A stretch of DNA of 38,410 nucleotides, taken from Chitinophagaceae bacterium (lineage in GTDB: Bacteria > Bacteroidota > Bacteroidia > Chitinophagales > Chitinophagaceae). How positions within the stretch are numbered: position 1 is the first letter of the stretch; the number at the start of each line of letters is the position of its first letter. The notes under the pieces are model-generated. The model made no database searches. It saw nothing but the letters and a program-made list of their open reading frames with translations, and was not told the origin of the DNA. Shown here piece after piece: positions 3,727 through 14,807 of this stretch. A program made the position numbers and the translations under genes. Where the stretch lies: the NCBI GenBank assembly GCA_025363075.1, contig JANYEP010000274.1, positions 1 through 38,410 of the forward strand, given 5' to 3'.

Positions 3727-3776
3727 AAACCCTCATTATTGCAATTGGTTTAAACCAATTGCAATAATGAGGGTTT
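3727..3776. terminator. 50-bp perfect palindrome, bidirectional terminator
   Basis: Two 25-base arms (3727-3751 and 3752-3776) are exact reverse complements with no spacer, centred on TTT|AAA. A-rich and T-rich ends flank a core containing ACCCTCATTATTGC, so either strand can form a hairpin followed by U-rich RNA. The palindrome lies between the convergent FAD oxidoreductase gene (stop ends at 3725) and the giant minus-strand gene. It includes two bases of the latter's TAA, so it should serve both transcripts. Confidence 0.85.
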
Positions 3777-6700
3777 ATCTTAAAACAGTTACACTTCCTG
3801 TAATTGTTTCTCCATTTGCAGATGTGTGAATGATGTAGTAATACACACCAACTGGCACATCTTGTCCATTATATTTTCCATTCCAGGGTTTGTAGTTTGC
3901 CAAATGGTTACTCAGCAATTGTTGCCCATACCTATTGAATACTTGTATAGTGCCACTTATGTATGCCTCAGTGTTACCAATATCCCAATTGTCATTTATT
4001 CCATCTCCATTTGGCGAAAAAACATTAGGAATTTTTAAAGGCAATGCAAGCAATACATTTACTATGCTTGAATCGCTACAACCCATATCTGTAATAACTT
4101 TCAGCTTATATGTTTGATTCGTTAACGGTGTGCAAATTGGGTTTTGTGCAGTAGAATCATCTAAGTATTTAGCAGGCGACCAAATGATAGTTGACGCATT
4201 TGTAAGGTATGGATTAAGCATAACTGAGTTGCCTAAAAACACATACACTTTATCGTTTAAAGTAATGGTGGGATTGGGATTTACAACAATATTATTAATG
4301 TTATAAATGCTATCGCAACCTTGCACAGATTTAACGGTATCGCTGAAACTTGTTGATGTGGTATAATTAATATTCTTATAAACAACGCTGTTGCAACCAG
4401 TGTAATTGGTAGATTTTGTTGAAGCAATGAGAGGTGTTATATTGATTTTTACAATCAAATAAACACTATCACAGCCTTGTGCGGATTTGGTGGTATCTTT
4501 TATTGTAGTTGAAATATTATAATTTACACCATTATAATTTACACCATTGCAACCAACAAGGTTTATCGTCTGCGTTGTAGCATTCATAGGCGTTATAGCA
4601 ATATTTACTGTTTTATAAATGCTGTCACAACCTTGCACAGATTTGGTGGTATCTTTTAAAACAGTTGAGGTAGTATAGTTAATTCCACCATAATTTACAA
4701 CACTACAACTTGATAAATTAATTGTCTGTGTTGTGGCATTAACAGGCGTTACAACAATATTAACAACATTGTAAATGCTATCGCAGCCTTGTGTAGATTT
4801 AGTGGTATCTTTTAAAATAGTTGAAGCATTGTAAGTAATGCCTTTATAAATAATGCTTTTGCAATCTGATAAATTCTTGGTGTTTGTTGTGGCTACTATT
4901 GGTGTATATGGATTTAATGTTAAACTCAATGCAGCAGAAATGCAACCAGTGTTATTATCCATAGCAGTAATTGAATATGCACCTGATGGATAGTTGGCAA
5001 ATGTGGTATCTATAAAAGAAATAGCACCTGCATTAATGTAATAAGAATAGTTATTGCCGTGTGGAGATGATATAATAAATGTGCCTAATGGATTACTACA
5101 ACTTGGCTGCACAGTTACATAACCTGTGGGTGTAGGAACAGCAGATGCAGCAGTATCTACTATCAAACTTAGCGATGCTGAAATGCAACCTGTATTACTA
5201 TCCTTAGCACTCACTAAGTATGTTGCAGGTGCAAGACCAGCAAAGATTGTAGAGCTTTGAAAGTTAGTGCCATCAACACTATAAAGATAATTTGTTCCTA
5301 CAGGATTGGTTACAACTATTGTTCCTGTGGGATTGCTGCAATTAGGTTGCACAGTTACACTAGCTATTGGCTTTGCAGGTGATGCATTTACAGTTATGTT
5401 AGCAATATTGTAAACACTATCGCAACCCTGAACAGTTTTTAAAGTATCTTTTATAGTAGTAGATGAAGTGTAGGTGATGCCTTTATAAATAATATTATCG
5501 CAGCTTTTAAGATTAACAGTATTGCTAGTAGCAGTAGGGCTGATAACAATGTTTACAGTATTATAAACACTATCGCAGCCTTGATAGCTTTTAAGCGTAT
5601 CTTTTAGAATTGTTGATGTTGTGTAGGTGTTGCCTTTATAAATAATGCTGTTGCAATCGCTTAAATTGATTGTATCTTTAGTTGCAGTTCTGCGTACGTT
5701 GGCAATGAAGTTGCCATCGGCAGCTGGGTGAACTCCAACATTGATAGTTGATACCACCTGATTATTAAAACTATTAATAACACTCACAGAATTACTTGAA
5801 AAGTTAGCAACATAGACCATTAAACCATCTTGACTTATACTTATTCCATTAGGAAAAAAACCAACGACAATTGTTGCTACTACTGAATTAGTGTTGGTAT
5901 TTATGACACTTATCGTGTTACTAGCTGCATTACTTACATATAACTTTAGTCCACTTCTGTCTATAGATATACCTAATGGAGAATTAGCAACAGGTATTGT
6001 TGTTATTATTGTATTGTTAATAGTATTTATAACACTTACTGAATTACTACCTTCATTGCATACATATACTTTCAGTCCATCTGGACTTACATTTACCCCT
6101 TGTGGGCTAGCTCCAACAGGAATTGTTGCTATAACAGTAACGTTAGAGGTGTTGACAACACTTATGGTGTTACTTCCATAATTGGTTACATACAACCTTC
6201 CTCCATCTGGGCTTATTGCAATTCCTTCAGGATTTGTACCAACAGGTATTGTTCCAATAACACTATTTGTTGTAGTGCTAATAACATTTATCGTATTACT
6301 TCCCCAGTTAGTAACATATGCTTTTAGTCCATCTGGGCTTATTATTATTCCAACAGGTTTCAGCCCCACAACTATTGTTGAAACAACTGTATTGTTCAAC
6401 GTATTTATTACACTTACATCATTACTTTTATAATTACTAATATAAACTGATTTTCCATTAGGGGTAACACTTACGCCTACAGGTTGCAGTCCCACAGCTA
6501 TTGTTGCTATAACAACATTAGTCAACGTATTGATTACACTTACATCATTACTGACCGTGTTCGTTATATACGCATACGCTGTTCTCATTCCCACAGTAAT
6601 ATGTGCAACATTATAAACACTATCGCAGCCTTGTATAGCTTTTAGGGTATCTCTTATGGTTGTATCATTTACATAAGTATTGCCTTTATATATCACACTA

Positions 6701-8307
6701 TTGCAATCAAATAAATTAATGTTATTAGTAATTGCAGGTGGGTTTACATTCAACACCAATGTTACTGCACTATCGCAACCTGCATTGCTTGTAACGTTTA
6801 GCACTTGCGAGCCAGCAGCATTAAACACTACACCATACCAAGTGTATGGTAAATCTGCAGCACAAATAGTTTGGGTTGCTGTAGTTTTTATGGTATCTGT
6901 AACAGTTAATACAAGTGTTGCAGCACTATCGCAACCTGCACTACTTATTAAACCTTTTTTTGTTTGTGTGCCAGCACTATTAAATGTTAATCCATTCCAC
7001 GTGAATGGCAATTGGCTGGTACAAGTTGCTTGGTTGGTTGTAGATTTTATGGTATCTGTAACAATAAGTTTTGTGGGTAAAGATGTTTTGCTGCAACCTG
7101 CAACTGTGGTTGTAGTAACAGTATAGTTGCCTGCTACATTTGTAGTAAAGTTTTTACTAATAGCTCCTATAATGTTTGTACCATTTAGCTTCCATTGGTT
7201 TCCTGTTGTTGCAGAGCTTGTTAATGTAATGTTGCTACCTGTGCAAATGGTGCTACTATCTTTTGGATTAATAGTTGGCACAGCAGGGTAGGCATTTACA
7301 CCTACAACAATAGTATCTCTACTACTCTCACAACCTGTTGAAGTATCAAATGCACTTACATAGTAATTTGTTGTTCCAATTGTTGAAGAAGAAATAGCAG
7401 GAGTAGGCGAGCCATAACTATTGCCATTTACTGCTTGTGTGTACCAACGTAAAGTATCTTTTACAGAGCTTACGGTTGGCATTATAAAATTGATAGCATC
7501 GCCCTGGCAAATGTTGAAAGGGCTTGTTGCAATTGGTTTTGAAGGTGCTGTGGCACTTTGTGTTTCTGCAATGCTTGCAGCATCATTTACTGCAAAAGGC
7601 AAGGTGCAGGTAATGGTAGTTGATTGTATTTTATTTGTCATATCAACAGAAAAAATATCTGTTGTACTGCCATTGGTACTAAGTGCATAAGCAGCATTGC
7701 TACTGCAAGGCACAGTAACACTTGCAAAACCAAACACGCTTGTACCTGCATTAAAATTCATATATAAAGTGCTTGCACTAACATTTGAAAGATTAACCTG
7801 TACTAAAGCATTGTTGCCCCCACTCACCTTAACTGCTTCATATAAATTTCCCTGATAAAATAATAAATCACCACCAATTGTCCACGATGAATTGATAGAA
7901 CCCAATGTGGCAAAGGCATTGGTGCTTGGATTGTATGATTCAATAACGCTGCCAGTTGCTGCATAAACAATGCCTCCTGGTCCAACTGTCATTCCATATA
8001 TTTTTAATGGCGTTGAAAATTTGCCAAGTTTTGTGCAAGTATTTGAAGTGCCAGTAGCAGTTAAGGTATTGCTATACAAAAATCCTTGATTATCTACAAT
8101 GTAAATGGTTGTTCCATCAAGTGCAATAGACAATGGACTTCCTGTAAAGTTGTTACATAAATTTAATGGAGTATTTGTGCAGCCACTTGCACCAATAGTA
8201 ACTTTTGTAAGTTGCCCACCACTATTAATGGTAATGAAAGTAGCATTTTGAGCTTTTGCAAAAAAGTGAATTGACAATAAAAAAAGAAACGCTACAATTT
8301 TATTCAT
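3775..8307 (-). CDS. Giant secreted repeat protein with YVTN beta-propeller and gliding-motility C-terminal domain
   Basis: The 1510-residue product has a signal peptide (MNKIVAFLFLLSIHFFAKAQ). Residues about 21-245 look like a repetitive beta domain, followed by Ig-like segments to about 420. Two cysteine-bracketed modules with AGCDSA cores come next, then a clear QGCDSVYN module at about 530-572. Residues 579-869 hold seven consecutive 42-residue YVTN repeats (YVTNYGSNTISVVNT type, ending in SPDGLKVY-like phrases), enough for one seven-bladed propeller. Six more QGCDS modules follow: two, then two SprB-like segments (DSNTGCISASLSL), then four at 52-residue spacing. The end is an Ig/PKD-like piece and the gliding-motility-associated C-terminal domain (IPNVFSPNGDGINDNWDI to GSVTVLR), a type IX secretion sorting signal. 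It is probably exported and surface-attached or released. The ligand is unknown. Confidence 0.88.
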   Translation of the reverse strand: MNKIVAFLFLLSIHFFAKAQNATFITINSGGQLTKVTIGASGCTNTPLNLCNNFTGSPLSIALDGTTIYIVDNQGFLYSNTLTATGTSNTCTKLGKFSTPLKIYGMTVGPGGIVYAATGSVIESYNPSTNAFATLGSINSSWTIGGDLLFYQGNLYEAVKVSGGNNALVQVNLSNVSASTLYMNFNAGTSVFGFASVTVPCSSNAAYALSTNGSTTDIFSVDMTNKIQSTTITCTLPFAVNDAASIAETQSATAPSKPIATSPFNICQGDAINFIMPTVSSVKDTLRWYTQAVNGNSYGSPTPAISSSTIGTTNYYVSAFDTSTGCESSRDTIVVGVNAYPAVPTINPKDSSTICTGSNITLTSSATTGNQWKLNGTNIIGAISKNFTTNVAGNYTVTTTTVAGCSKTSLPTKLIVTDTIKSTTNQATCTSQLPFTWNGLTFNSAGTQTKKGLISSAGCDSAATLVLTVTDTIKTTATQTICAADLPYTWYGVVFNAAGSQVLNVTSNAGCDSAVTLVLNVNPPAITNNINLFDCNSVIYKGNTYVNDTTIRDTLKAIQGCDSVYNVAHITVGMRTAYAYITNTVSNDVSVINTLTNVVIATIAVGLQPVGVSVTPNGKSVYISNYKSNDVSVINTLNNTVVSTIVVGLKPVGIIISPDGLKAYVTNWGSNTINVISTTTNSVIGTIPVGTNPEGIAISPDGGRLYVTNYGSNTISVVNTSNVTVIATIPVGASPQGVNVSPDGLKVYVCNEGSNSVSVINTINNTIITTIPVANSPLGISIDRSGLKLYVSNAASNTISVINTNTNSVVATIVVGFFPNGISISQDGLMVYVANFSSNSVSVINSFNNQVVSTINVGVHPAADGNFIANVRRTATKDTINLSDCNSIIYKGNTYTTSTILKDTLKSYQGCDSVYNTVNIVISPTATSNTVNLKSCDNIIYKGITYTSSTTIKDTLKTVQGCDSVYNIANITVNASPAKPIASVTVQPNCSNPTGTIVVTNPVGTNYLYSVDGTNFQSSTIFAGLAPATYLVSAKDSNTGCISASLSLIVDTAASAVPTPTGYVTVQPSCSNPLGTFIISSPHGNNYSYYINAGAISFIDTTFANYPSGAYSITAMDNNTGCISAALSLTLNPYTPIVATTNTKNLSDCKSIIYKGITYNASTILKDTTKSTQGCDSIYNVVNIVVTPVNATTQTINLSSCSVVNYGGINYTTSTVLKDTTKSVQGCDSIYKTVNIAITPMNATTQTINLVGCNGVNYNGVNYNISTTIKDTTKSAQGCDSVYLIVKINITPLIASTKSTNYTGCNSVVYKNINYTTSTSFSDTVKSVQGCDSIYNINNIVVNPNPTITLNDKVYVFLGNSVMLNPYLTNASTIIWSPAKYLDDSTAQNPICTPLTNQTYKLKVITDMGCSDSSIVNVLLALPLKIPNVFSPNGDGINDNWDIGNTEAYISGTIQVFNRYGQQLLSNHLANYKPWNGKYNGQDVPVGVYYYIIHTSANGETITGSVTVLR

Positions 8308-8594: not shown

Positions 8595-9710
8595 ATGAAG
8601 TTTATTGTATCATCTTCTCTCCTTTCAAAACAACTTGGACAAATTAATGGCGTTATCAATGCCAATACTGTTTTGCCCATTTTGGAAGATTTTCTTTTTG
8701 AGATAAAAGATAAAAAATTAAGCGTTACTGCAACCGATTTAGAAACAGTAATGAAAGTGCAACTTGAGGTAGAAAGTAAGGTTGATGGAAGGGTTTGCAT
8801 TCCTCACAAAGTATTGAGCGATTATTTAAAAAACATTCCAGATCAACCATTGACTTTTAGCATTGATAAAAACTTTGGAATAGATATTACCAGCGATAAC
8901 GGTAAATATAAAATTATGGGCGAAAACCCCGATAATTTTCCTAAAGAACCAGCAAGTGACGATGCAAATAGTTTCACAATGCCAAGCACAGCAATGGTTT
9001 CAGCAATCAACAAAACCTTGTTTGCTGTAAGCAACGATGATTTGCGTCCTGCAATGACAGGTGTGTTTTTTGAGCTTTCTAAAAAGCATATTCAATTTGT
9101 TTCTACAGATGCACACAAGTTGGTAAAATATATTAGAACAGATGCAAAAGCTACAAAGGATGATTCATTTATTGTGCCTCGCAAACCATTGAATTTATTA
9201 AAAAATTCTTTGCCAGACAATGATGATGAATTAACCATTAGCTACAACAGCAATCACCTGTTTGTAACGCATCCAAACATCCAATTGATTTGCAGATTAA
9301 TTGATGCACGTTTTCCAGATTACAAAGTTGTTATTCCTGCTGATAATCCTTATAAATTGATTTTAAATAAATCAGATTTTCAAGGTGCATTGCGTAGGGT
9401 AAATGTATTTGCAAATAAAAGTACCAACCAAGTTGCATTAACCATTAGTGGTAGCGAATTGCAAATGGCTGCACAAGATGTTGACTTTAGTTTTGAAGGA
9501 AATGAAAGAATGAGTTGCCAGTTTGATGGTAGCGATTTACAAATTGCCTTTAACGCAAAATTTTTAATTGAAATGTTGAGTGCCGTTGATACCAGTGAAA
9601 TCTCTATTGAACTCTCAACGCCAACAAGAGCAGGCATTATGAAGCCATCTGAACAAGGAGAAAACGAAGAATTACTAATGTTGGTAATGCCTTTAATGTT
9701 GAATAATTAA
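8595..9710 (+). CDS. dnaN: DNA polymerase III subunit beta (sliding clamp)
   Basis: The 371-residue product is the standard length for a bacterial beta clamp and is recognisable along its whole length. It opens with MKFIVSSSLLSKQLGQINGV and NTVLPILEDFLFEI, contains SVTATDLETVMKV, then the second-domain phrase NDDLRPAMTGVFFEL. It ends with LLMLVMPLMLNN, the characteristic VMPL-type C-terminus. The dimeric ring encircles DNA and tethers the replicative polymerase and other partners. The gene is not next to dnaA or recF here: it stands with a DUF2007 gene between two divergent giant secreted-protein genes. A TAGGTTTG box lies 24 bases upstream and a strong hairpin terminator follows the stop, so it is probably a single-gene transcript. 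Confidence 0.97.
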   Translation: MKFIVSSSLLSKQLGQINGVINANTVLPILEDFLFEIKDKKLSVTATDLETVMKVQLEVESKVDGRVCIPHKVLSDYLKNIPDQPLTFSIDKNFGIDITSDNGKYKIMGENPDNFPKEPASDDANSFTMPSTAMVSAINKTLFAVSNDDLRPAMTGVFFELSKKHIQFVSTDAHKLVKYIRTDAKATKDDSFIVPRKPLNLLKNSLPDNDDELTISYNSNHLFVTHPNIQLICRLIDARFPDYKVVIPADNPYKLILNKSDFQGALRRVNVFANKSTNQVALTISGSELQMAAQDVDFSFEGNERMSCQFDGSDLQIAFNAKFLIEMLSAVDTSEISIELSTPTRAGIMKPSEQGENEELLMLVMPLMLNN

Positions 9711-10343: not shown

Positions 10344-13300
10344 ATGAAGAAGTTATACCTTATATTTTTTTTATTATGTGCCTTAATTAGCACAAACATT
10401 TTTTCTCAAATAACAGTTACCACAGGGCAAACAGCAAATCAACTTGCACAAAAATTGGTTGGTAGTGGTATTACAATTTCTGGTGCAACATTAATAAGCA
10501 CAGCAACACAGTGTGGAAAGTTTACAGCAACAGCCAATGCATTTCCTTTTACAGATGGCATTGTTTTAACCTCTGGTGTTGCTAAAACTAATGGTTCAAC
10601 AAGAGGTGTTAATGGACCCAATCAACCAAGTGTTGTGGATAATCCACTTGGAACAGCAGGTGATACATGGCTTGATTTATTAATGCCACCACCGCAACCT
10701 GGTAATTCGCCAACTACTACTCAAGATGCTTGTGTACTCGAATTTGATTTAATACCAAATGGAGATAGTATTTTCTTCAATTACATTTTTTCTTCTGAAG
10801 AGTATAATGGATTTGTGTGTAATAAGTACAATGATGTATTTGGTTTCAAACTTTCAGGTTTTGGCATAATTGGTTATAAAAATATCGCTCTTGTCCCTAA
10901 TCAATCAACCAATATACCAGTTTCAGTAAATAGTGTGAACAATGGTATTCCAAGTAGTGGTAATCCTCTTGATTACCAGAATAATTGTCAAGCAACGGGC
11001 GTAGGAGCCCCATTCCCAGCATATTATCACGATAATACTGGTAATGCTTATATGGCACACAAGGGCAGAACAGTAGTATTGACAGCAAAAGCAAAAGTAA
11101 CACGTTGTAAAAAATATCATCTAAAGATTGCAATCGCTGATGCAGGAGATGATCGATATGACAGTGGTGTTTTTTTAGAAGCGGGTAGTTTAAAATCTAC
11201 AGCTCCTGCGTCTTTAAGCATTACTAATGCATATATAGACACTAACAAACAAACTTTGGTTGAAAGATGTCATCCATTGGGATATGTAAAAGTAAATCGA
11301 AACATAAAAGTTGATACTACTACTGCACTTACACTCAACTTTACCTATGCTGGTACTGCAACTTATGGTGTGGACTACACAGCAACTAATACAATTACTT
11401 TTCCTGCATATAAAACAGTAGATTCTTTTGCTATAAATGTTATTGATGATGGTGTTGGTGATGACAATGAAACCATACTTATCAAAATGCAACAAGCTGG
11501 TTGTACCAGTGGTTTTGCAGATAGCATTCCATTAAAAATTATTGAACATTGGACTACAACTATCAATTCAAATGTAGCTTCTTGCTCTGGTGCAGGTGCA
11601 GCTTTAAAATCGCTTTATGGCGACTCTACCAGCACAACTTTTTTATGGAGTAATGGTGATACAAGTGCTATTACTCATCCTAATTCTTCTGGGCAATATA
11701 CTTGTGTGGCTACCAATAAAACTACCTGCTACGAAAAAGACACATTTAACGTAGTTATTGATAATTTCAAAGTTACCAATATTCCAAAAAATTACACGAC
11801 TTGCAGTACAGATTCTGTTGTATTAACCTACACAGCAAATCAGCCAAGCACAAGCCACACCTGGAGTACAGGCAATTCTGTGGATAGTATTATCAAGGTA
11901 AATACTACTGGCAATTATGTAATGACATGTATTTCACAAAGTGGTTGTGTGGCATCAGATACTAGCTTTATAAAATACATTGGCAACCCAGTTTTAACAC
12001 TTCCTCCAACAGCTACTTTTTGTAGCGGTGATAGTGTTTTGCTTACAGCATCAACCGATTTAGGATTAAAATATTTATGGAGTAATGGTGATACTACAAA
12101 TGCAATTTGGGTAAAAAATTCAGGGACTTATTCTGTAATAGCACAAGCAAATGGTTGCACTGCCAATGACACAATAGTTGTAACTGCTAAACCAAATCCT
12201 GTGGTTAATTTACCTGAAAATGTTGCTAAGTGTAAAGGCGATACTGTGTGGCTAAATGCAAGCACTTTAACTGGTAGTGTTTACACCTGGAATAATGGTG
12301 CAAACACAGATTCTATTGCTGTAACAACAAGTGGTCAATACATTGTTGATGTTAACTTAAATGGATGTTATGCTCACGATACATCCAACGTTATTTTGTA
12401 TAACATACCAGTATTAACATTGCCTGCAACAGTCAATTTTTGTGCAGGCGATAGTGCTTTGTTAAATGCTACAACCTTTGCTGGAACAAGCTATTTGTGG
12501 AGTACAAATGATACTGCTTCAAGCATCATTGTTAAAACAAATGGAACTTATTTTGTAAAGGCAACATTAGGTGTGTGTAGTGCCTACAATACAACTGTAG
12601 TAAGTGTTACACAATTTCCCATATTAAATTTACCTATCAATGTTTCAAGTTGTGCAGGTGATAGTGTTTTGCTTGATGCAACAAATCCAACAGGTACAAT
12701 TTATACTTGGAGCAGCGGTGAAAGCACACCAAAAATTTGGATAAAAAAAACTAATATTTATATTGTAACTGCTAGCTTGAATGGATGTGCAACAAATGAT
12801 ACAACTGTTGCTATATTTAATAAAACCCCTATACTAAATCTTCCATCAATAGTTAATATTTGTGCAGGAGATAGTGCATTATTAAATGCCACAACTTATG
12901 CAGGAACAAGCTACTTATGGAATACAAATGATACAACATCAAGCATTGTAGTAAAAGCAAATGGAACTTATTTTGTGAAAGCAACATTGGGTGTGTGTAA
13001 TGCCTACGATACAACAATAGTAAGCGTTACACAATATCAGCCATTAAATTTACCTGCTACTATTTCTGCCTGCAAAGGCGGTAGTTTTTTATTGAATGCT
13101 ACAAGTGCAACAGGCACAATTTATAGCTGGAGCAATGGAGCAAACACGCCAACTATTTTAATAAAAAATACTGGAACATATATTGTAAAAGTTGATTTGA
13201 ATGGATGCTCAACAAGAGATACAACTATTGCTGTTTTCAACAACACTCCTATTTTAAATTTACCTGCTACAAAAAATATTTGTGCGGGCGATAGCACCAT

Positions 13301-14807
13301 ATTAAACGCTACAAGTTTTGCAGGAACAAGTTATTTATGGAATACCAATGAAACAACACCAACAATAACTGTTAAAACAAATGGAACTTATTCTGTAGTA
13401 GCAACACTTGGTGTGTGTAGTGCCTACGATACAACAGTGGTAAGCGTTACACAATATCCAACATTAAATTTACAAACAAGTGTTTCAAGTTGCTTAGGTG
13501 ATAGTGTAATGCTTGATGCAACGAATCCAGTAGGCACAATTTATCACTGGAACAATGGTGCAACAACACCAATATTATGGATAAAAAATAGTGGCAATTA
13601 TATCGTAACTGCAAGTTTAAATGGATGCTCAACTAAAGATACAACTGTTGCCATTTTCAATAAAACCCCAATACTAAATTTACCTAAATCAAAAAATATT
13701 TGTGAGGGTGATAGTGCGTTATTAAATGCAACAAGTTACGTTGGTACAAATTATTTATGGAGTACAGGTGAAACAACTCCATTTATTTATGCAAAAAACA
13801 ATAACATTTATTTAGTAAAAGCTACGCTTGGTGTTTGCACTGCTTACGACTCAACAATATTAAACGTTACACAATACCAAAAACTAAACTTACCCCCTAT
13901 TGTTATAAGCTGTGTAGGTGATAGTGTTCTTTTAGATGCCACCAGTGTAGCAGGAACAGTTTATTCGTGGAGTAATGGTTTAACCACTTCAACTGTTTGG
14001 GTAAATACTCCAGGAAGTTATAGAGTAACAGCAAGTATAAATGGTTGCCCAACAAAAGACACCTCAACTGTTATTTTTAATCTACCACCAATTGTGAGTG
14101 TTCAGCCACCAACAGCATTCTTTTGCGATGGCGATAGCGTTCTATTAACTGCCACGAGTAGCAGTCCATCAAGTCATTTTTTATGGAATACCAATGACCC
14201 TACAAATACACTTTTAGTAAAAGTTTCTGGTGAATATTTAGTGGATGTAAAAGCTGATGGATGCACTACAAGAGGCAAAGCTGTTGTTACTGTTTATCCA
14301 ATACCAACAGTAGATGCAGGTAAGGATTTGTTCATACCACAAACAAATAATCAAACAAGTTTCAAGGCTATTGCAAGCAGTGATGTTGTTAGTTTTTTAT
14401 GGACACCTTCATTCAATTTAAGTGACAGTACTGCATTGCAACCTACTATTTTAAATCCAGCAGATACAGTTTATAAATTAGTAGTATCAAATGGTCATTG
14501 TACAAACTTTGATTCAGTTAAAGTAATTGTATTAGGCAACTTCAAAATACCAAATGTTTTTTCTCCAAATGGTGATGGCATCAATGATACTTGGGAAATA
14601 AAAGGATTGGGAAATTATCCAAATGTTGAAGTACATATTTTCGACAGATATGGACGAGTAGTATTTACTCAAGGCAACTATCATAAAGCATGGGATGGAA
14701 CTTATGAAGGAATGGGAAAACCTGTTGCAGTTGGAACTTATTACTACATCATTGATGCAAAACAAGGACGACCAGTACTAAGCGGAAGTATTACAGTATT
14801 GCGATAA
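10344..14807 (+). CDS. Giant secreted protein: choice-of-anchor L domain, 13 Ig-like repeats, gliding-motility C-terminal domain
   Basis: The 1487-residue product starts with a signal peptide (MKKLYLIFFLLCALISTNIF). Residues about 24-280 match the choice-of-anchor L domain (TANQLAQKLVGSGITISGA, then FIFSSEEYN-like IFSSEEYNGFVCNKYNDVFG). A Calx-beta-like stretch follows at about 300-400 (TATYGVDYTATN and DDGVGDDNETILIKM). Thirteen Ig/PKD-like modules run to about residue 1320. Each has a CxGDSVLLxAT start, a W-SNG/TND core and a late GC-x-x-x-DT. Ten of them are exactly 70 residues long, and eight of those form four A-B pairs. A PKD-like segment then leads to the type IX secretion C-terminal domain (about 1398-1487, IPNVFSPNGDGINDTWEI to GSITVLR). 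It is probably a cell-surface or released adhesin-like protein; its partner is unknown. A terminator hairpin follows. Confidence 0.9.
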   Translation: MKKLYLIFFLLCALISTNIFSQITVTTGQTANQLAQKLVGSGITISGATLISTATQCGKFTATANAFPFTDGIVLTSGVAKTNGSTRGVNGPNQPSVVDNPLGTAGDTWLDLLMPPPQPGNSPTTTQDACVLEFDLIPNGDSIFFNYIFSSEEYNGFVCNKYNDVFGFKLSGFGIIGYKNIALVPNQSTNIPVSVNSVNNGIPSSGNPLDYQNNCQATGVGAPFPAYYHDNTGNAYMAHKGRTVVLTAKAKVTRCKKYHLKIAIADAGDDRYDSGVFLEAGSLKSTAPASLSITNAYIDTNKQTLVERCHPLGYVKVNRNIKVDTTTALTLNFTYAGTATYGVDYTATNTITFPAYKTVDSFAINVIDDGVGDDNETILIKMQQAGCTSGFADSIPLKIIEHWTTTINSNVASCSGAGAALKSLYGDSTSTTFLWSNGDTSAITHPNSSGQYTCVATNKTTCYEKDTFNVVIDNFKVTNIPKNYTTCSTDSVVLTYTANQPSTSHTWSTGNSVDSIIKVNTTGNYVMTCISQSGCVASDTSFIKYIGNPVLTLPPTATFCSGDSVLLTASTDLGLKYLWSNGDTTNAIWVKNSGTYSVIAQANGCTANDTIVVTAKPNPVVNLPENVAKCKGDTVWLNASTLTGSVYTWNNGANTDSIAVTTSGQYIVDVNLNGCYAHDTSNVILYNIPVLTLPATVNFCAGDSALLNATTFAGTSYLWSTNDTASSIIVKTNGTYFVKATLGVCSAYNTTVVSVTQFPILNLPINVSSCAGDSVLLDATNPTGTIYTWSSGESTPKIWIKKTNIYIVTASLNGCATNDTTVAIFNKTPILNLPSIVNICAGDSALLNATTYAGTSYLWNTNDTTSSIVVKANGTYFVKATLGVCNAYDTTIVSVTQYQPLNLPATISACKGGSFLLNATSATGTIYSWSNGANTPTILIKNTGTYIVKVDLNGCSTRDTTIAVFNNTPILNLPATKNICAGDSTILNATSFAGTSYLWNTNETTPTITVKTNGTYSVVATLGVCSAYDTTVVSVTQYPTLNLQTSVSSCLGDSVMLDATNPVGTIYHWNNGATTPILWIKNSGNYIVTASLNGCSTKDTTVAIFNKTPILNLPKSKNICEGDSALLNATSYVGTNYLWSTGETTPFIYAKNNNIYLVKATLGVCTAYDSTILNVTQYQKLNLPPIVISCVGDSVLLDATSVAGTVYSWSNGLTTSTVWVNTPGSYRVTASINGCPTKDTSTVIFNLPPIVSVQPPTAFFCDGDSVLLTATSSSPSSHFLWNTNDPTNTLLVKVSGEYLVDVKADGCTTRGKAVVTVYPIPTVDAGKDLFIPQTNNQTSFKAIASSDVVSFLWTPSFNLSDSTALQPTILNPADTVYKLVVSNGHCTNFDSVKVIVLGNFKIPNVFSPNGDGINDTWEIKGLGNYPNVEVHIFDRYGRVVFTQGNYHKAWDGTYEGMGKPVAVGTYYYIIDAKQGRPVLSGSITVLR
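11994..14093 (+). repeat. Ten in-frame 210-bp repeats, the last eight forming four 420-bp A-B units
   Basis: Module starts fall exactly 210 bases apart from 11994 to 14094 with no indel. From 12414 onward alternate modules resemble each other more than their neighbours. A modules start at 12414, 12834, 13254 and 13674 and share YLWxTNDT, TLGVCSAYDTT and VSVTQYP phrases. B modules start at 12624, 13044, 13464 and 13884 and share GTIYxWSNG, SLNGCxTxDTT and VAIFNKTPI phrases. So the unit that was duplicated was probably the 420-bp pair. Confidence 0.9.

Follow-up and report, generated by a model that had tools for sequence, protein, structure and literature searches.

How a seven-bladed YVTN beta-propeller came to stand within an array of small repeated modules, and what it might do there, is the question raised by one gene in contig JANYEP010000274.1 of a Chitinophagaceae bacterium (assembly GCA_025363075.1), a stretch of 38,410 nucleotides referred to here as the window. 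The gene encodes a modular protein of 1510 aa that ends in a type B sorting domain of the type IX secretion system. An earlier note, made from the sequence alone, had placed the propeller inside an array of modules carrying the string QGCDS, and had proposed that it was inserted into the array or duplicated within it. Its coordinates were right, and the location of the propeller between QGCDS modules is confirmed. Comparison with homologs supports shuffling, and because a propeller-free homolog exists and the same joints recur under unrelated N-termini, exchange bounded by the modules would be the simplest account; the data do not polarise gain against loss. The gene most likely encodes an adhesin-type surface protein of modular build whose domains can be exchanged.

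Architecture of the 1510-residue protein

The features of the gene are as follows.

3775..8307, minus strand: uninterrupted open reading frame (ORF), 1510 aa, modular protein with a type IX type B sorting domain
8251..8307, minus strand: signal-peptide-like N-terminus, aa 1-19, with Q at position 20 (read by eye from the sequence)
7564..8250, minus strand: N-terminal domain, aa 20-248, kept in three same-genus homologs (55-71%)
7294..7545, minus strand: Ig_7 domain, aa 255-338 (PF19081, 36.9 bits against a cut-off of 27.3)
6892..7047, minus strand: module m1, TWNG/GCDSAATL type, aa 421-472
6739..6891, minus strand: module m2, TWNG/GCDSAATL type, aa 473-523
6586..6735, minus strand: QGCDS module m3, aa 525-574, directly N-terminal of the propeller
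5695..6582, minus strand: seven-bladed YVTN beta-propeller, aa 576-871
5536..5685, minus strand: QGCDS module m4, aa 875-924
5383..5532, minus strand: QGCDS module m5, aa 926-975
4894..5382, minus strand: 163-aa spacer, aa 976-1138, with two repeats of about 75 aa (VQPxCSxPxGT...GCISA; by eye)
4744..4893, minus strand: QGCDS module m6, aa 1139-1188
4588..4737, minus strand: QGCDS module m7, aa 1191-1240
4432..4581, minus strand: QGCDS module m8, aa 1243-1292
4276..4425, minus strand: QGCDS module m9, aa 1295-1344
3778..4038, minus strand: type B type IX sorting domain (CHU_C/TIGR04131), aa 1424-1510

A second Ig-like stretch follows the Ig_7 domain, ahead of the TWNG-type modules, and a PKD-like stretch, seen by eye and without a Pfam match, lies between m9 and the C-terminal domain (CTD). 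Neither the N-terminal domain nor the spacer has a Pfam family over its cut-off.

The module pattern is C...YxGxxY...GCDS over about 51 aa, in tandem, with GCDS strings at aa 458, 510 and 560 before the propeller and at 910, 961, 1174, 1226, 1278 and 1330 after it. The earlier note had counted one QGCDS string ahead of the propeller and six behind, which is correct as far as the string goes, but the total is nine modules (three and six) and not seven, as the two diverged TWNG...GCDSAATL modules (aa 421-472 and 473-523; 6739-7047) had been overlooked. Among the six trailing modules two indeed adjoin the propeller and four stand in tandem; the 163-aa spacer that separates the two groups had been missed. 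The tandem modules m6-m9 repeat every 52 aa, or 156 bp, over 4276-4893 of the window, and Tandem Repeats Finder reports a 156-bp array at 4459-4825. The N-terminal domain, Ig_7 and the type B CTD had gone unmentioned. Profiles built from eight modules recover the ninth in every case (E 1.2e-26 to 1.4e-5 for a nominal database of 1000, m2 being the weakest), and neither the module nor the blade profile matches any of 1000 shuffles of the protein; the nine modules are thus not a chance pattern.

Proposed exchange of the propeller at module boundaries

In a genome of the same genus, a 1335-aa homolog (L040:3293-7297, minus strand, on G001:C27) is 64% identical to the window protein over aa 1-429 and 50% over aa 1138-1510, with 71% for the N-terminal domain and 50% for the C-terminal part. 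It has 11 modules and a type B CTD, and the blade profile finds no YVTN blade in it. Domain exchange at module boundaries would account for a propeller in the window protein and none in this co-linear homolog. The ORF that follows on the same contig shares the N-terminal domain and carries two modules. In a further genome (G002) the end of contig C266 carries the N-terminal domain; contig C7 carries a C-terminal piece of 651 aa, with seven modules and without blades, that may belong to the same gene. Such a propeller-plus/propeller-minus pair within one genus offers a handle for studying domain gain in type IX cargo.

The same joint is found in other proteins. We surveyed 30 propellers, namely 29 with at least six detected blades and one cut propeller in L029, leaving out L152 and L154, which have blades but no run of six; the propeller loci cover 18 genomes with a match, out of 244 drawn from the family. 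Modules flank the propeller directly on both sides in three proteins, at gaps of 2-9 aa: the window protein, L155 (the same gene as L073, on G389:C275) and, with TWNG-type modules, L136 (G519:C21). They stand directly behind the propeller in three more, L029 (where the front is cut off), L149 and L137 (where a profile gap of 51 aa before the module includes the last blade, by eye), and farther off in the same ORF in seven. The N-termini of the three proteins flanked on both sides are unrelated: the window protein has its own N-terminal domain, L073 a C-type lectin and L136 a LamG domain. RCC1 propellers likewise occur between module runs, in L071 (which is L029, on G001:C96; by Pfam) and in L088 (by motif). 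Both L071 and L073 resemble the window protein in having propellers between runs of the same modules and a type B CTD, and differ from it in the RCC1 propellers of the former and the C-type lectin N-terminal region of the latter.

An alternative is vertical inheritance with loss, in which the ancestor already had the order module-propeller-module, homologs of the G001:C27 type lost the propeller, and nothing was inserted in the lineage of the window. The junctions of the window protein and L155 are indeed alike, with 38 of 60 residues identical ahead of the propeller and 36 of 60 behind it, and L029, from the same genus, has a similar junction after the propeller. The module in front of the L073 propeller has its best match, among 425 other modules, in m3 of the window protein (64%), as would be expected of an inherited cassette; in the reverse direction, however, the L073 module is not within the five nearest to m3, which has closer matches elsewhere. 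Blades of the two propellers are slightly more alike at the same position (52.7%) than at other positions (48.8%). As the unrelated N-termini of the window protein, L155 and L136 need shuffling in any case, we regard inheritance with loss as rather unlikely and favour exchange at module boundaries. Of the two routes named in the earlier note, insertion into the array, or shuffling with it, is supported by the propeller-free homolog and the recurring joints, whereas duplication within the array is rejected: the blade and module profiles do not match each other's regions in the protein.

Several propeller genes deserve mention in their own right. L029:2889-8207 combines RCC1 and YVTN propellers in one type B CTD protein (Pfam, from L071), and in L088:4440-11756 the RCC1 propellers between GCDS module runs were recognised by motif. 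L149:3601-5385 (G463:C82) is a minimal version, with a signal-peptide-like start, a YVTN propeller, a single QGCDS module and a dockerin-like stretch (by eye). Contig G359:C74 (L138) has two propeller genes that share 81% identity along 3.5 kb, the mark of a rather recent duplication. Finally, the phage gene L115:2346-3707 (IMGVR_UViG_3300035180_000189) encodes, after three tail-fibre-like repeats (GDTMTG...ATxALQAVPKQQ), a YVTN propeller whose best segment is 45% identical to that of the window protein; capsid- and lysin-like genes lie nearby (named by eye), and the product is possibly a tail fibre tipped by the propeller.

The GCDS module: spread, fold and cysteines

In the fetched loci, the nine-module profile finds 443 copies that cover at least 39 positions, spread over 72 ORFs, or 394 without six twice-fetched loci; with these loci dropped, the module alignment holds 426 copies. 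One ORF, L075, has 33 modules, 28 of them in a single run. When a two-module profile was run against 296 genomes drawn across the phylum, nine reached E 1e-5: five in the family of the window (its own genome included), three in a second family of the same order and one elsewhere in the class. A scan with one peptide pattern gave 48 named loci, from Chitinophagaceae metagenome-assembled genomes (MAGs), Taibaiella, Edaphocola and a few Chitinophagales or Bacteroidetes MAGs; no relative of the module was found in viral contigs. The module does occur in other type IX cargo, as the earlier note had suggested looking for; the ORFs concerned have sorting domains of type A or type B.

On the module copies of the 1510-residue protein no Pfam or NCBIfam family passes its cut-off, and where long module arrays match Pfam families such as LRR_EndoS, PcF and Vac14, chance or composition was judged to be the cause. 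Sequence searches of the PDB with the modules gave nothing convincing, although the one with aa 870-1510 is weak evidence, since it also missed the match of the CTD to grappling hook protein A (GhpA) discussed below. A title-level literature search found no description of the module, nor of any type IX cargo with a YVTN propeller. The GCDS module is apparently an unmodelled common repeat of Bacteroidota surface proteins. More tentatively, and with some doubt, it could be an undescribed mini beta-domain, with its centre in the Chitinophagaceae and the order they belong to. It would then be a standard joint, with YVTN and RCC1 propellers and lectin-like and LamG domains set between module runs or next to them, and surface proteins would be assembled by cassette swaps at its boundaries.

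The best AlphaFold2 (AF2) model of a four-module array has five strands per module, with a mean predicted local distance difference test (pLDDT) score of 77 and a predicted template modelling score of 0.46; the other four models disagree with it (mean pLDDT 62, 59, 48 and 38). In Foldseek, GhpA fragments rank first and second against the array model (E 1e-5), the GhpA rows having template modelling scores of 0.24-0.28. VIA-align places the modules against GhpA at Z 3.1-3.7 and a root-mean-square deviation of 6-10.5 A; unrelated Ig domains do equally well (Z 3.8 in the best row), and no match reaches Z 5. The predicted fold may be called Ig-like at best.

The earlier note had also proposed that two conserved cysteines in each module, in NLxxC at the start and in QGCDS near the end, could form disulfides. 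NLxxC is present in six of the seven modules with the QGCDS string, and the last one has NYTGC. Across 409 of the 426 alignment rows (17 incomplete rows set aside, near-duplicate loci such as L095/L098 and L103/L108 kept), both cysteines are present in 374 modules, the first only in 21, the second only in 13 and neither in 1, with no association between the two losses (Fisher p 0.54). The high conservation would fit a disulfide and the independent losses would not; cysteine covariation gives the putative bond no support.

Probable surface display and possible role of the propeller

The CTD passes both curated cut-offs, with 67.5 bits against 35 for TIGR04131 and 67.6 against 27 for PF13585. 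The genome of the window encodes SprA (SprA_N at C66) and six PorP_SprF proteins over cut-off, and CHU_C is over cut-off in 16 of the 18 matches listed. None of the six PorP_SprF genes lies on the contig of the window (C187). In published cases, type B cargo is reported to be held by PorP-like proteins (PMC9143113). Sec export and the type IX system would take the 1510-residue protein across the outer membrane, and it would stay attached to the cell surface by its C-terminal domain, probably with a PorP/SprF-like barrel as partner. Going outward from the cell, one would then meet the CTD, four QGCDS modules, the spacer, two QGCDS modules and the YVTN propeller, and farther out one QGCDS and two TWNG modules, the Ig-like domains and the conserved N-terminal domain as the tip. 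The GCDS modules would act as short spacers, with the propeller held mid-stalk as an accessory display or binding domain, and domains could be swapped among the surface proteins of the family by shuffling at module boundaries. On balance we consider it probable that the product is such a secreted, surface-anchored modular protein with exchangeable domains and a mid-stalk accessory propeller; its architecture suggests that it may serve adhesion or the display of a ligand-binding domain. The earlier view of a stalk with the propeller as its binding head is plausible as regards the modular stalk, but doubtful as regards the head: with a C-terminal anchor, a propeller at aa 576-871 of 1510 would sit mid-stalk, and the better conserved N-terminal domain, at the distal end, is the likelier tip.

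The seven YVTN repeats of the earlier note are borne out, at a pitch of 42 aa (aa 576-869; 5701-6582). TIGR02276 matches seven stretches with 262.6 bits against a cut-off of 27.85, and the blades are 38-64% identical to each other. Structure prediction, which the note had proposed as a check, gives a closed seven-bladed fold with confidence: in an AF2 model of aa 525-978 from a five-row alignment, the propeller has 28 strands at a pLDDT of about 95, while nearly all of the flanking modules are below 50. The top PDB match of the model in Foldseek is 1l0q (E 8.2e-36, 41% identity), with seven-bladed designs also matching, and 1l0q is likewise the first solved match in phmmer (E 7.8e-76), followed by hydrazine synthase beta. 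This archaeal surface-layer protein, presumably from Methanosarcina mazei, resembles the window protein in joining a seven-bladed YVTN propeller to small domains in a surface protein; its partner is the PKD domain, in tandem YVTN and PKD units, where the window protein has GCDS modules, Ig_7 and a type IX CTD.

These matches bear on two other views of the propeller. It could be an enzyme or redox-type domain (YncE-, lactonase- or hydrazine synthase beta-like) displayed on the stalk, since it scores above the cut-offs of four fold-level Pfam families (YNCE, Lactonase, NHL and Arylesterase) and hydrazine synthase beta is the second-best solved relative. The NCBIfam enzyme equivalogs, however, fall far under theirs (hydrazine synthase beta 140.6 of 560 bits, YncE 76.2 of 400, L-NosZ 76.4 of 700, 6-phosphogluconolactonase 20.2 of 370), and the best solved match is a surface-layer YVTN domain; we consider a catalytic role very unlikely. 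The propeller and modules could instead be purely structural, forming an extended spacer or a coat element of the kind known from surface-layer proteins and leaving binding to the N-terminal domain. The mid-chain position, the better conservation of the N-terminal end between homologs and the kinship with a surface-layer protein agree with this, whereas a 402-aa protein (L039) in which such a propeller is the only large domain, with a short tail, and the propeller at the end of the phage tail-fibre-like protein L115 suit binding better. A solely structural role therefore seems rather doubtful, and an accessory domain for display or binding remains our preferred reading.

The account of a modular surface protein with exchanged domains has to be weighed against several results. 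Modules on both sides are the exception, found for three of the 30 propellers, and 17 propellers sit in 15 ORFs that have no module, although several ORFs are cut by contig ends. For L136, NCBIfam shows no type IX sorting domain at E 0.001. The propeller tree has 28 rows, and support is below 80 on 20 of its 25 inner branches, so that one shared cassette and several insertions cannot be told apart. DNA comparison of module tracts of at least 80 bp, made between genes in the loci fetched from each of G000, G001 and G002, gives no sign of recent gene-to-gene exchange: the best shared tracts reach 78, 74 and 78%, respectively, against 89, 86 and 80% for copies within one array, and among the best seven cross-locus rows per genome the matches of 83-97% in G002 and G389 lie outside the detected modules. 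The structure model of the module is of moderate confidence only, and the propeller has the possible enzymatic or purely structural roles set out above.

Among characterized type IX cargo, GhpA of Aureispira (PMC11205867), reported as a heptamer of 5898 aa (PMC13319060), may be similar in part. Its Ig-like repeats (PDB 9flp and fragments) match aa 193-417 of the window protein: aa 1-576 give E 7.3e-27 for the whole chain, made up of many weak stretches over the Ig-like region under strong compositional bias, with a best single stretch of 0.00066. The QGCDS modules, in contrast, have no sequence match in GhpA. A search with the whole protein also reached GhpA (E 2.5e-14), with the CTD as best stretch; we rest nothing on this CTD match, as aa 870-1510 (up to E 0.1) and aa 1345-1510 (up to E 10) alone give no match to GhpA. 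Gliding adhesins of the SprB/RemA type are large cargo as well; SprB is reported to have a type B CTD (PMC9143113) and RemA a lectin domain (PMC11205867), and the propeller might serve likewise. Unlike the SprB type, the window protein has no SprB repeat (none among 12 Pfam matches at E up to 1) and no PorP/SprF gene on its contig. Its arrangement is a variant within the known modular type IX surface proteins, tidy rather than startling: the unmodelled module, with its 426 aligned copies, and the propeller pair are useful parts, and ideas on secretion or adhesion are unchanged.

As for the surroundings, a dnaN-like gene (8595-9710, plus strand; named by eye) adjoins the 1510-aa gene, and three genomes of the genus have it at 90-93% identity. 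In the stretches from G001, G002 and G003 no copy of the 1510-aa gene was seen next to it, with the G001 stretch covering only 1.2 kb on that side; the position of the 1510-aa gene thus seems variable. Across the dnaN-like gene lies a second type B CTD protein (10344-14807, plus strand) of 1487 aa with a choice-of-anchor L domain, whose gene contains a 420-bp tandem repeat at 12435-14059.

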